Below, one piece after another: positions 37,955 through 45,907 of a DNA stretch of 64,000 nt. Under the pieces are notes generated by a model. That model saw only the letters and a program-made list of their open reading frames with translations, ran no database searches and was not told where the DNA came from. Within the stretch, counting starts at the first letter, position 1. Each line of letters opens with the position of its first letter. Position numbers and translations under genes: made by a program. Location of the stretch: NCBI RefSeq assembly GCF_000423705.1, contig NZ_AUIM01000012.1, forward strand, positions 248,001-312,000. Direction: 5' to 3'. This DNA is from Stappia stellulata DSM 5886. Lineage in GTDB: Bacteria > Pseudomonadota > Alphaproteobacteria > Rhizobiales > Stappiaceae.

Positions 37955-37971
37955 GCGTGAGAATCACGCAT
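37955..37971 (+). promoter_or_regulatory. Upstream activator site 1 of the sigma-54 regulon
   Basis: GCGTGAGAATCACGCAT, a palindrome GCGTGA-GAA-TCACGC. A 15-of-17 match recurs at 45784, and both copies lie exactly 109 bases before the GG of a -24/-12 promoter. This is the expected place and form of an enhancer site for the sigma-54 activator encoded at 44737. Confidence 0.75.
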
Positions 37972-38061
37972 AACTTCCGGCCTTTCGGGTTCTGCTTCGG
38001 AAGCTTTCTTATAACTAGCTGATAAATAAGATAAAAAACATCCTGTTCTGGATGGTGGTAT

Positions 38062-38078
38062 CTGGCATGCCGCTTGCT
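38062..38078 (+). promoter_or_regulatory. Sigma-54 promoter P1 of the dipeptide ABC operon
   Basis: CTGGCATGCCGCTTGCT matches the sigma-54 consensus (TGGCAC-N5-TTGCA): GG at 38064-38065 and GC at 38076-38077 with the obligatory ten bases between. Transcription should start near 38089, 62 bases before the first gene. The AT-rich stretch 38009-38040 between this promoter and the activator site could hold an IHF site. Confidence 0.82.
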
Positions 38079-38150
38079 TTGATGGCGGTGCCGGCATAGT
38101 GAGGCCTGCCGAGGCAGGGCCGGATACGACAGGAACGGGAGGATGTTTTG

Positions 38151-39689
38151 ATGGTTAGAGTAAGACGAGTTCTGTTTGCGACGGCGGCGGCCCTGGGTCT
38201 GTCGCTGTCGGCGGCGCAGGCTTCGGAGCTTCGCGTCGGTTTCACGCTCGATGCCATGACGCTGGATCCGGCCAATCACCGCAATCGCGAAACCGAGACC
38301 ATCATTCGCAACATGTACGACGGCCTGGTCACCCGTGACGGCGACATGAAGGTCGTTCCCCAAATCGCCGAATCCTTCGAGATGGTGTCGCCGACGGTCT
38401 ATGATTTCCGGATCCGGGAGGGCGTCACCTTTCACGACGGTTCGTCGCTGACGGCGGAAGACGTGCGCTTCACCTTCGAACGCCTGACGGCCGAGGGCGC
38501 AATGGGCGATGGCCAGACCAGTCCGCGCAAGAGCCTGCTCGGGCCGGTCGAATCCGTCGAGGTGCGCGACGGCAATACGGTGCGTATCACGCTGTCGGAA
38601 CCCTGGCCGATCCTGCCGGCGATGCTGCCCTTCCAGGAGGTCGTGTCCAAGGCCTTCGTGGAAAAGGTCGGAACGCAGGGACTTGCGACGCAGGCGAACG
38701 GCACCGGCCCCTTCAAGCTGGTCGACTGGCGCAAGGGCGATGCCATCATCATGGAGCGGTTCGAGGACTATTACGGCGGCGCGCCCTCCATCGAGCCGGT
38801 CGGCGAGGCCTGCGTCGAGCGTGCCATCTTCAAGATCATTCCCGAATCGGCGTCGCGCGTGGCGGCGCTGCTTGCCGGTGATGTCGACATCATCAACGAA
38901 CTGCCACCCTTCTCCGTCGAGCAGGTGAAGAGCAATCCCGGCACCGACGTGATGACCGTCAACGGCACCCGGAGCTTCTTCGTCGCCATGAACATGGAAG
39001 GCGATCTGTTCAGCGATCCCAGGGTTCGCCGCGCCGCGGCCCATGCGATCGACAAGGACCTGATCATCGATCGCATTCTCGGCGGCAACGCCGCGCGGAT
39101 CGAGGGCATCCTGTCGCCGGACGCCTTTGCTGCCAGCACCGATCTTCCGGTTTATGAATACGATCCGGAAAAGGCGCGCGCGCTGCTCGCCGAAGCCGGA
39201 TATCCGGATGGCGTCGAGATCACCATGGACACCGTCGGCGCCTACAAGGACATCGCCGAGGCGGTCGCATCGCTGCTGACCAAGGGCGGGTTCAACACAA
39301 GGGTCGCGGTCGGCGAGGGCGCGCAGATGACCCAGAAGTGGCGCACCAAGGGCGGGCCGAAGTCCGGTGACATGTATTTCACCTCCTGGGGCAACGGCTC
39401 GCTCGATCCCTTCGACATCTTCACCCCGACCCACCGGACCAACGACCGCGGCAACTCCGCCGGCTATGCCAACCCCGAGGTTGACCGGCTGCTGGACGCA
39501 GCTGCGATCGAACCCGACACGCAAAAGCGCGCCGCGCTCTACCGTGAGGCCGAGCAGATCGTCAATGGCGACCTGCCGTATGTCTACCTCTGGGTGCCCC
39601 AGGACATTTACGGCGTGTCCAAGCGCCTGACGGGATGGCGTCCGAGCGCGGACAGCCGCATCAACCTGCACGACGCTTGCGTCGACTGA
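38151..39689 (+). CDS. Periplasmic binding protein of a dipeptide-type ABC transporter (family 5)
   Basis: 512 residues. Signal peptide MVRVRRVLFATAAALGLSLS with cleavage after AQA (about 25). Mature family 5 receptor: LRVGFTLDAMTLDPANHRNR (about 28-47), MYDGLVTRDGDMKVVPQIAE, FRIREGVTFHDGSSLTAEDV (about 84-103), ANGTGPFKLVDWRKGDAIIM and VDRLLDAAAIEPDTQKRAAL. The ATG at 38151 follows GGGAGGA; an adjacent upstream TTG frame offers nothing. First gene of a seven-gene operon led by sigma-54 promoter P1. Ligand probably a peptide or N-acyl amino compound, judging from the hydrolase gene in the operon (inference). Confidence 0.93.
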   Translation: MVRVRRVLFATAAALGLSLSAAQASELRVGFTLDAMTLDPANHRNRETETIIRNMYDGLVTRDGDMKVVPQIAESFEMVSPTVYDFRIREGVTFHDGSSLTAEDVRFTFERLTAEGAMGDGQTSPRKSLLGPVESVEVRDGNTVRITLSEPWPILPAMLPFQEVVSKAFVEKVGTQGLATQANGTGPFKLVDWRKGDAIIMERFEDYYGGAPSIEPVGEACVERAIFKIIPESASRVAALLAGDVDIINELPPFSVEQVKSNPGTDVMTVNGTRSFFVAMNMEGDLFSDPRVRRAAAHAIDKDLIIDRILGGNAARIEGILSPDAFAASTDLPVYEYDPEKARALLAEAGYPDGVEITMDTVGAYKDIAEAVASLLTKGGFNTRVAVGEGAQMTQKWRTKGGPKSGDMYFTSWGNGSLDPFDIFTPTHRTNDRGNSAGYANPEVDRLLDAAAIEPDTQKRAALYREAEQIVNGDLPYVYLWVPQDIYGVSKRLTGWRPSADSRINLHDACVD

Positions 39690-44770: not shown

Positions 44771-45789
44771 GCGTCGCCGGCGCTCCCAAGGGAGCGCAAG
44801 GGACGTGCATGCCGGGCTACCAGAACGACCTGATCGGCGATCATCCGAGCATTCTGGCGCTGCGGCGCCTGATCGAGCGGGTGGCCCGCTCGCCGGCGCA
44901 GAACGTGCTGATCTACGGGCCGACCGGCACCGGCAAGGGGATGGTCGCGCGCATGTTGCACCGCCTGTCCGCGCGGGCGTCGAAGCAATTCGTCGACATC
45001 AACTGCGCCGCCATTCCCTCCAGCCTGCTGGAGTCGGAACTCTTCGGCCACGAGAAGGGCGCCTTCACCGGCGCGGTGGAACGCAAGGTCGGGCTGGTCG
45101 AGGCGGCAAACCACGGCACTATCTTTCTCGACGAGATCCGCGAAATGGAGCCGATGCTCCAGACCAAGCTGCTCAGCCTGCTCGACACCCACGAGTTTCG
45201 CCGGGTCGGCGCGGTGAAGACCACTTCCGTCGACGTCCGCTTCATCGCGGCGACCAACAAGGTGCTGCTGTCGGAGGTCGTGGCAGGCAATTTCCGCGAG
45301 GATCTCTATTATCGGCTCCAGGTCGTTGCCATCAACATTCCGGCTCTTTCCGAGCGCGGCGACGATGTCTTGAAGCTGGCCGACTATTTCATTTCCCGGT
45401 TCAACGAGCGCTACAAGCGCGCGATCAAGGGGCTGTCGGCGGAGGTTGCCGAGATTTTCCTGCAGTACCAGTGGCCGGGAAACGTTCGGGAACTGGAGAA
45501 CCTGATCGAGCGCATCTTCATCCTGGAGGATGACGATGTCATCGAGCCGCATCACCTGCCGGACCGGATCCTGCGCGCGGTGCGCGGCGGCAGCGGCGCC
45601 GGGCCGGCCTCCGCGCACGCCGATCTGTCGCCGGGCTTTCGCGCGGCCACCGAAGCTTATCAGCGCAAGCTGATCGAACAGGCGCTCGCCACCTCGAAGA
45701 ACAATCTCAAGGATGCGGCCGCCCTTCTCAAGATCAGCCGTCATGCGCTGCGCCACCAGATGCTCAAGCTCGGGATGATCGATGCGTGA
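44737..45789 (+). CDS. Sigma-54-dependent activator without sensor domain (AAA+ and Fis-type HTH)
   Basis: 350 residues from ATG 44737, preceded by GAGGGG. The AAA+ domain begins after only about 30 residues: GPTGTGKG Walker A (61-68), GAFTGA sigma-54 contact loop (108-113), TIFLDEI Walker B (128-134), FIAATNKVLL sensor I and QYQWPGNVRELENL sensor II (about 248-261). A Fis-type HTH is at the end (NNLKDAAALLKISRHALRHQ, about 326-345). It has neither receiver, GAF, PAS nor V4R domain, so activity must be set by a partner protein, by the short N-terminus, or by amount. Walker A ends GKG instead of the usual GKE/GKS. Last gene of the P1 operon; the UAS for P2 overlaps its stop codon. Confidence 0.92.
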   Translation: MSWEVETVRPVSVAGAPKGAQGTCMPGYQNDLIGDHPSILALRRLIERVARSPAQNVLIYGPTGTGKGMVARMLHRLSARASKQFVDINCAAIPSSLLESELFGHEKGAFTGAVERKVGLVEAANHGTIFLDEIREMEPMLQTKLLSLLDTHEFRRVGAVKTTSVDVRFIAATNKVLLSEVVAGNFREDLYYRLQVVAINIPALSERGDDVLKLADYFISRFNERYKRAIKGLSAEVAEIFLQYQWPGNVRELENLIERIFILEDDDVIEPHHLPDRILRAVRGGSGAGPASAHADLSPGFRAATEAYQRKLIEQALATSKNNLKDAAALLKISRHALRHQMLKLGMIDA

Positions 45790-45800
45790 GAACCGCGCAT
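45784..45800 (+). promoter_or_regulatory. Upstream activator site 2 of the sigma-54 regulon
   Basis: GCGTGAGAACCGCGCAT, differing from the element at 37955 in two positions that weaken the palindrome on the right side. It overlaps the stop codon of the activator gene (TGA 45787-45789) and starts exactly 109 bases before the GG of promoter P2. Confidence 0.7.
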
Positions 45801-45890
45801 GAGCGCGGGCAAAAAGCGCGCGTTCCGCGCCTTGCGACGGTTGCTTTGAATAAGTCTATGTAATTACAGTTATTTTTTCTTATCGTGGGA

Positions 45891-45907
45891 TTGGCATGCT
45901 CCCTGCA
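45891..45907 (+). promoter_or_regulatory. Sigma-54 promoter P2 of the AtuA/DUF4387 genes
   Basis: TTGGCATGCTCCCTGCA: GG at 45893-45894, GC at 45905-45906, ten bases between, and the TGGCATGC core identical to P1. Transcription should start near 45918, 28 bases before the AtuA-like gene. The stretch 45847-45882 is very AT-rich, as expected for an IHF-bent spacer. Confidence 0.82.

Follow-up and report, generated by a model that had tools for sequence, protein, structure and literature searches.

Sigma-54 is normally common to many bacterial enhancer-binding proteins (EBPs) and regulons. Some EBPs, such as PspF and HrpR-HrpS, are sensorless and consist of an AAA+ and a helix-turn-helix (HTH) part only, and PspF is controlled by PspA. 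Specialised pairs of a sigma-54 and an EBP are already known from Cereibacter (Rhodobacter) sphaeroides, where the account given in parts of PMC11999139 assigns RpoN1 to NifA, RpoN2 to FleQ and RpoN3 to AprX, while rpoN2 is placed within the fla1 locus in PMC7277832. For RpoN4 and the EBP RSWS8N_04525, the corresponding parts of PMC11999139 report no link to xrpA and assign no role. On the enzyme side, the closest solved systems are the citramalate lyase CmlAB (PDB 9erq, 9evf) and isopenicillin N acyltransferase (PDB 2x1c, 2x1d, 2x1e).

Here we describe a cluster of nine genes in a 64,000-nucleotide stretch of the Stappia stellulata DSM 5886 genome (contig NZ_AUIM01000012.1, positions 248,001 to 312,000; hereafter the window), which encodes a peptide-type transporter, a C45-family hydrolase, an EBP and an AtuA-DUF4387 pair behind two -24/-12 promoters. 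We consider it highly probable that these genes form a two-promoter, sigma-54-dependent regulon for taking up and degrading a single compound, under the control of a dedicated EBP. Specialised sigma-54/EBP pairs as such are on record from C. sphaeroides; for the window, the finding proper is this proposed two-promoter regulon.

Paired promoters and palindromes in the window and its relatives

Both promoters lie on the plus strand, the first (CTGGCATGCCGCTTGCT, 38062..38078) upstream of the solute-binding-protein operon and the second (TTGGCATGCTCCCTGCA, 45891..45907) upstream of atuA-DUF4387, and both satisfy the sigma-54 pattern of GG-N10-GC with its TGGCA and TGC blocks. Each is preceded on the same strand by an enhancer-like palindrome. 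The first, GCGTGA-GAA-TCACGC (37955..37971), was located by pattern search, matches all 12 arm bases and is kept in relatives, whereas the second, GCGTGA-GAA-CCGCGC (45784..45800), matches 10 of 12 and overlaps the EBP stop codon. The two 17-mers, GCGTGAGAATCACGCAT at 37955 and GCGTGAGAACCGCGCAT at 45784, mismatch at 2 of 17 bases, and both begin 109 nucleotides (nt) before the GG. The paired promoters and elements described in an earlier note on this DNA are hereby confirmed to the base, as is the open reading frame (ORF) at 44737-45789 for an activator with GAFTGA and a Fis-type HTH between them.

Even when 3 mismatches are allowed, the 17-mer is confined to these two places in the 64 kb, where 4.6 occurrences would be expected by chance. 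A combined pattern of GCGTGA-N6-CGC, 66–96 nt and TGGCA-N7-TGC is found three times in the 4.6 Mb genome, two of which are the window sites, while the reversed control gave none. The third match, on contig C9, retains the required CGC alone of its right arm, lies inside a coding sequence that we read as rpoC, and is taken as a chance match. At the strictness of this pattern the regulon looks closed in the window genome, as had been claimed in the note. A perfect palindrome elsewhere in this genome was considered as a further target and rejected; it lies inside an open frame without a sigma-54 site in the following 260 nt and is therefore taken as chance.

Relatives were collected by a genome scan with an AtuA alignment and two peptide patterns, yielding 61 AtuA loci from near relatives only, many of which are cut by contig ends. 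Palindromes were scored by their matches to the 12 arm bases of GCGTGA-N3-TCACGC, with at least 9 counting as present, and one locus (L037), the second copy in the same metagenome-assembled genome (MAG) as L038, was excluded from promoter and palindrome counts in relatives. In EBP-bearing clusters, a palindrome stands at a distance of 30–150 nt from 81 of 85 promoters (upstream regions below 250 nt excluded), and 60 of the 85 reach at least 10/12. In the same loci, this applies to 13 of 119 other sigma-54-like sites and to 11.5 % of random positions (n=4097; 1.8 % at 10/12 or better). Counting dyads at the 85 promoters without any preset motif ranked GTG-N7-CGC (63/85, 6.0 expected), CGT-N8-CGC and GCG-N9-CGC (79/85, 11.3 expected) at the top; other high dyads, for example CAG-N6-AAG, are attributed to sequence conservation where the EBP gene ends.

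The palindrome also follows the presence of the activator, a co-occurrence that the note had proposed as a check. Excluding upstream regions shorter than 200 nt, EBP-bearing loci have a promoter score of at least 26 upstream of the solute-binding-protein gene (sbp) in 35 of 40 and upstream of atuA in 49 of 51 cases, and a palindrome within 300 nt upstream in 88 of 91 regions, whereas loci without the EBP have none within 300 nt in 13 (2 of 13 within 420 nt) and a sigma-54 site scoring at least 26 in 1 of 13. This single site (L086:3302-3376, a Firmicutes MAG) is a -24/-12 site (TTGGCATGATCATTGCT) at the atuA homologue without a palindrome, and a different EBP, 42 % identical, is encoded nearby.

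The held-out set consisted of eight additional stretches, seven orthologous and one divergent (L197). The palindrome is present in 14 of the 15 upstream regions shown, although L193, counted among the 14, duplicates L064. The exception is sbp of L197, which lies within an operon and has no promoter. L197 itself (10331-14497, genome G089) represents a divergent sister cluster of the order EBP-AtuA-DUF4387-SBP, 48–54 % identical (EBP 52 %, AtuA 51 %); its palindrome upstream of atuA is perfect, it has a strong -24/-12 site, and no linked sigma-54 gene was seen in the stretch; the same genome carries a second AtuA locus without the EBP.

Taken together, the conservation of the element and its co-occurrence with the activator support the interpretation that the note had given, and the refuting condition named there, an element missing from orthologous operons, did not apply. 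Its 109-base spacing stands for both window sites but does not generalise, as the distance between palindrome and promoter is lineage-specific, with clusters near 54–55, 65–67, 75–78, 84–90, 108–115 and 127–131, and two tandem palindromes are common in relatives, mostly 18–23 nt apart and sometimes 13. The distances proceed in steps near 10.5–11 bp (R 0.62 at 11.0 for the best site of each promoter; R 0.56 for 35 sites of 21 dereplicated loci, a value that none of 5000 jittered sets reached). This hint of helical phasing is suggestive only, because the jitter control also removes similarity by descent. A scan of 26 genomes for a third target returned 51 matches, 27 of them at the cluster by coordinates and 24 scattered, compared to 15 for the reversed pattern, and no repeated third target was evident among the scattered matches, which were not inspected singly.

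The putative activator and a linked sigma-54 gene

The EBP (44737..45789, plus strand; the start used overlaps the end of the C45 gene) matches the Pfam families PF00158 with 217.9 bits (cut-off 20.2) and HTH_8 with 27.0 (cut-off 22), carries GAFTGA and is therewith assigned to the EBPs; its AAA+ part matches PspF in NCBIfam and the PDB. The Pfam scan detected no sensor domain in it, be it of receiver, GAF, PAS or another type, and its orthologues, not domain-scanned one by one, are equally short. The protein thereby resembles PspF and HrpR-HrpS, although no known type of partner gene was found in the cluster, and it differs from AprX of C. sphaeroides, which is described in PMC11999139 as having a receiver domain where the cluster EBP has no N-terminal domain. 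A defence-system reading was rejected: PADLOC matched the EBP to RtcR/PspF-type profiles over its AAA+ and HTH domains and to one other weak model, and gave no match for the three further proteins scanned.

We propose that the GCGTGA-N3-TCACGC palindromes, single or in tandem ahead of each promoter, are bound by the EBP, and that the GAFTGA loop of its AAA+ domain would open sigma-54 RNA polymerase both at the transporter-C45-EBP operon and at atuA-DUF4387. As the EBP gene is the last of the former operon, this would create a positive feedback loop, and, given the lack of a sensor domain, the signal would have to come from a partner protein, from a ligand of the AAA+ domain or from the EBP level itself. 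Lineages with a general RpoN, including the window genome, presumably use that protein, while in the Rhodobacterales the cluster usually has its own divergent, co-evolving sigma-54 gene.

This gene emerged when ORFs of at least 110 amino acids were clustered across the loci, shorter frames not being looked at: the one extra family present in many loci is rpoN, found in 25, with other recurring frames taken as antisense artefacts. In 23 of the 25 loci rpoN immediately precedes sbp in the same orientation, at a distance of 156–248 nt; in L041 it is on the opposite strand and in L078 elsewhere in the locus. When L052, L087 and all six held-out loci with room for the gene are added to the 23, the linked arrangement amounts to 31 genomes. 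All five linked RpoN proteins scanned, one of them the canonical L041 protein, hit the three Pfam domains (AID, core-binding and DNA-binding) above cut-off. Autoregulation of the linked rpoN by the palindrome was rejected, since none of its 23 upstream regions pairs a sigma-54-like site scoring above 26 with a palindrome of 9; the best palindrome reaches 9/12, and the only such site (L049, 27.5) stands without one.

The most probable of the alternatives is that the EBP is a constitutive activator, with sigma-54 control being architectural and induction exerted by an unlinked regulator or not at all. This would agree with the domain content of the window EBP, the similar shortness of its orthologues and the ORF clustering, which revealed no conserved partner gene beyond the enzymes, the transporter and rpoN. 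The retention of a sigma-54 gene beside the cluster in 31 genomes, however, suggests that its control is worth keeping, and we regard a constitutive activator as unlikely.

It appears less likely still that the linked rpoN is a hitch-hiking neighbour and not the functional sigma factor of the cluster. Neighbourhood does not equal function, the gene beside L041 is a canonical rpoN on the opposite strand, and one or more additional rpoN matches occur in 20 of the 31 genomes. Nevertheless, the linked gene keeps the same place and strand in 31 genomes and co-varies with the activator: over 25 loci its distances correlate with the EBP distances (r 0.91) and also with those for AtuA (0.78) and a permease (0.63), and in the 17 genomes with both types the correlation with the EBP is 0.92 for the linked and 0.27 for the unlinked rpoN. 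The linked gene is fast-evolving, with a median identity of 39 % compared to 71 % for the EBP.

In 11 of the 31 genomes the linked gene is the only rpoN found, although several are MAGs, for which the absence of a gene is weak evidence. In Thetidibacter halocola (G066) and in G070, neither a second rpoN nor a GAFTGA EBP besides the one in the cluster was found, the census having returned 4 and 3 Sigma54_activat proteins, respectively, at E 1e-20 or better, one of which in G066 has GAFPGA. In G073, likewise with a single rpoN, another EBP carries GSFTGA, and G064, the genome of L041, has three EBPs with GAFTGA. Seven loci with room but no linked rpoN were searched genome-wide (L036, L039, L046, L060, L071, L079 and L080); each genome has one rpoN, and all seven fall on the general-type side of the tree. 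L016 and L017, likewise with room and no linked gene, were outside this search.

Compared to the C. sphaeroides pairs as presented in PMC11999139, the linked arrangement is alike in that a single Rhodobacterales cell has several sigma-54 paralogues with separate EBPs and targets. It differs in that the targets are transport and breakdown genes, that the sigma gene adjoins the operon it would serve, and that in the 11 genomes mentioned it is the only rpoN found. The same source reports the -11 base as one specificity determinant separating RpoN1 from RpoN2 promoters. In our set, the GC is followed by A in 46 of the 48 linked promoters and in 10 of the 24 unlinked ones (Fisher 5.5e-7, ignoring relatedness), and in all 12 promoters of the six held-out linked loci. 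Another 13 promoters of unknown linkage, all with A, were left out of this comparison. They include those of L077, L078, L081 and L083, whose genomes have a single strong rpoN match, that of L078 being of general type by the tree and the other three taken as general from their E-values. Adding these four loci, which counts against A as a mark of a private sigma factor, brings the unlinked share to 14 of 28 (Fisher 4.3e-6), and unlinked L197 has T. As A is also found in unlinked clusters, we count it as a tendency only and not as support for the preferred explanation.

Variants and counter-evidence

The EBP orthologues of L074 (3532-4494) and L075 (1404-2360; Oceaniglobus ichthyenteri) have GTLAGA and GSFAGA, respectively, instead of GAFTGA. 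Neither locus shows a promoter score of at least 25.5 upstream of atuA or sbp, nor a strong promoter with a palindrome. The genome of L075 gave no rpoN match, that of L074 one. A loss of both motifs was considered and rejected, as weak tandem palindromes of 8–9/12 remain upstream of atuA. To judge from these sequences, the two EBPs would fit a departure from sigma-54 with the sites kept, perhaps with use of sigma-70 promoters.

We very much doubt that the palindromes serve some other regulator as its operator, be it a repressor or a sigma-70 activator, with the -24/-12 matches being chance or secondary: binding by the EBP is a prediction, the -24/-12 motif by itself is not enriched in window or genome, and the weak palindromes of L074 and L075 persist without a promoter, but palindrome and -24/-12 site accompany the GAFTGA EBP, the promoter is gone where GAFTGA is gone, both are nearly absent from loci without the EBP, and besides rpoN and the presumed antisense frames the clustering of ORFs of at least 110 amino acids gave no other family in more than five loci.

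Several observations weigh against a sigma-54-dependent regulon run by its own EBP, or against parts of it. With up to 2 mismatches, TGGCATGN5TGC has 79 matches in the window compared to 85 expected, which is background, and TGGCAYGN5TGCW occurs 10 times in the whole genome compared to 15 for the reversed pattern; neither motif is significant alone, and significance rests on conservation in relatives. There, many loci are close relatives and the counts are not independent, a palindrome of at least 9 is missing at 4 of the 85 promoters, and six of 91 upstream regions without a promoter score of at least 25.5 (L069 sbp, both of L074, both of L075 and L076 sbp) were removed before the 85 were counted. 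Two loci without the EBP, L085 (10/12) and L088 (9/12), each have a single palindrome 300–420 nt upstream of atuA, probably by chance. L074 and L075 keep their palindromes without a -24/-12 promoter. Regarding the private sigma factor, the single rpoN of the window genome is unlinked and on another contig (C4), and this part of the argument consequently belongs to relatives and does not apply to the window genome. In Paenochrobactrum gallinarii the rpoN beside the cluster (L041:382-1782, minus strand) is of the general type and the only one found in the genome, and a careful tree has a weak split (92/63) that groups 25 of 26 linked rows with 5 unlinked ones and does not resolve their order; a quick tree sets the 25 linked rows without L041 apart by a branch with an SH-aLRT (Shimodaira-Hasegawa-like approximate likelihood ratio test) value of 95.5. 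Finally, control of the candidate sites by the EBP is deduced from the conservation of these sites, and the chemistry set out below from a distant CmlA match and a fold.

A broader, tentative proposal, which we would put somewhat below even chances, is that the cluster is a portable, self-contained module. The Rhodobacterales version would be a catabolic cluster bringing its own sigma-54, sensorless EBP and palindrome, so that in some species the entire sigma-54 system would serve one cluster, whereas elsewhere, as in the window genome, the general RpoN would suffice and the EBPs of L074 and L075 may use sigma-70 with their sites kept. A sigma-54 gene travelling with the one operon pair that it seems to serve would offer a natural system for studying how specificity between sigma-54, EBP and promoter originates, with ready contrasts, as one EBP family occurs alongside a general RpoN, alongside a private RpoN, and without GAFTGA and a -24/-12 promoter. 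It also raises the issue of what switches an EBP that has no sensor, and makes the function of AtuA-DUF4387 and the C45 protein testable, as the operon should respond to its substrate.

Gene content, predicted chemistry and distribution

All nine genes lie on the plus strand. The first operon opens with a peptide-type solute-binding protein (38151..39689; SBP_bac_5 by Pfam, below the curated cut-offs in NCBIfam), followed by Pfam-assigned ATP-binding cassette (ABC) transporter genes for two permeases (39714..40721, BPD_transp_1; 40718..41629, BPD_transp_1 and OppC_N) and two ATPases with oligo_HPY tails (41632..42636 and 42633..43670). The next gene (43667..44770) encodes a C45-family autoproteolytic N-terminal nucleophile (Ntn) hydrolase/acyltransferase, assigned by an NCBIfam family profile above cut-off, a conserved Cys in the alignment and the Ntn fold of an AlphaFold2 model. 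DGC(S/T) is conserved in the alignment, and Cys120 is likely to be the nucleophile. The protein shares 18 % identity in the alignment with isopenicillin N acyltransferase and stands in a bacterial catabolic setting.

Beyond the EBP gene, the second operon encodes an AtuA/DUF1446 protein (45946..47328) and a DUF4387 protein (47325..47654), both assigned by Pfam and related to the citramalate lyase subunits CmlA (PDB 9erq_A, E 8.6e-74, aligned over residues 2–451) and CmlB (PDB 9erq_B, E 2e-21, over 6–105), respectively. The two homologous subunits are encoded together; the relationship to CmlAB is distant. An amide or peptide-like compound may enter via the Opp-type transporter and be cleaved by the C45 Ntn hydrolase, and the CmlAB-like pair would split the resulting 2-hydroxy acid. 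The earlier note knew of no described system with this gene set, which has to be qualified in that AtuA-DUF4387 has a named and solved relative in CmlAB, while for the whole set a literature search confined to open-licence PMC identified no paper on this cluster and no description of a transport and C45/AtuA cluster adjoined by a sigma-54 gene and a sensorless EBP with its palindrome. The main text of PMC12316311, which names R. sphaeroides with four rpoN genes, mentions neither AtuA nor Stappia.

All nine genes occur in order in 34 of the 61 loci, C45-EBP-AtuA-DUF4387 in 45 and DUF4387 in all 61. Most of the loci come from Rhodobacterales and Hyphomicrobiales; a few belong to MAGs from elsewhere, for instance Saccharospirillum and Verrucomicrobiales. 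EBP matches at E 1e-70 were obtained in 9 of 61 genomes, three of which, at 44–45 % identity, are probably other EBPs, and AtuA matches at 1e-40 in 9 of 37 genomes, three at 28–33 % identity. The whole cluster is present in the window genome and five relatives, two of them listed under the genus of the window. One of the five, the MAG G007, bears the cluster on each of two contigs (C27 and C103; L013 and L014), one of them cut, perhaps as two strains were binned together. In the family of T. halocola, the EBP is found in at least 17 of 394 sampled genomes, with the five best candidates scored per genome.

The cluster is flanked on its right (47706-54882) by genes that we read from translations only as a LysR-type regulator on the minus strand, followed by an aminotransferase, an aldehyde dehydrogenase, a PuuD-like hydrolase and a spermidine/putrescine-type transporter. 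To its left, at 32192-34422, the minus strand encodes a second peptide-type solute-binding protein and an XRE-type regulator, whose best NCBIfam match is PuuR, below cut-off.

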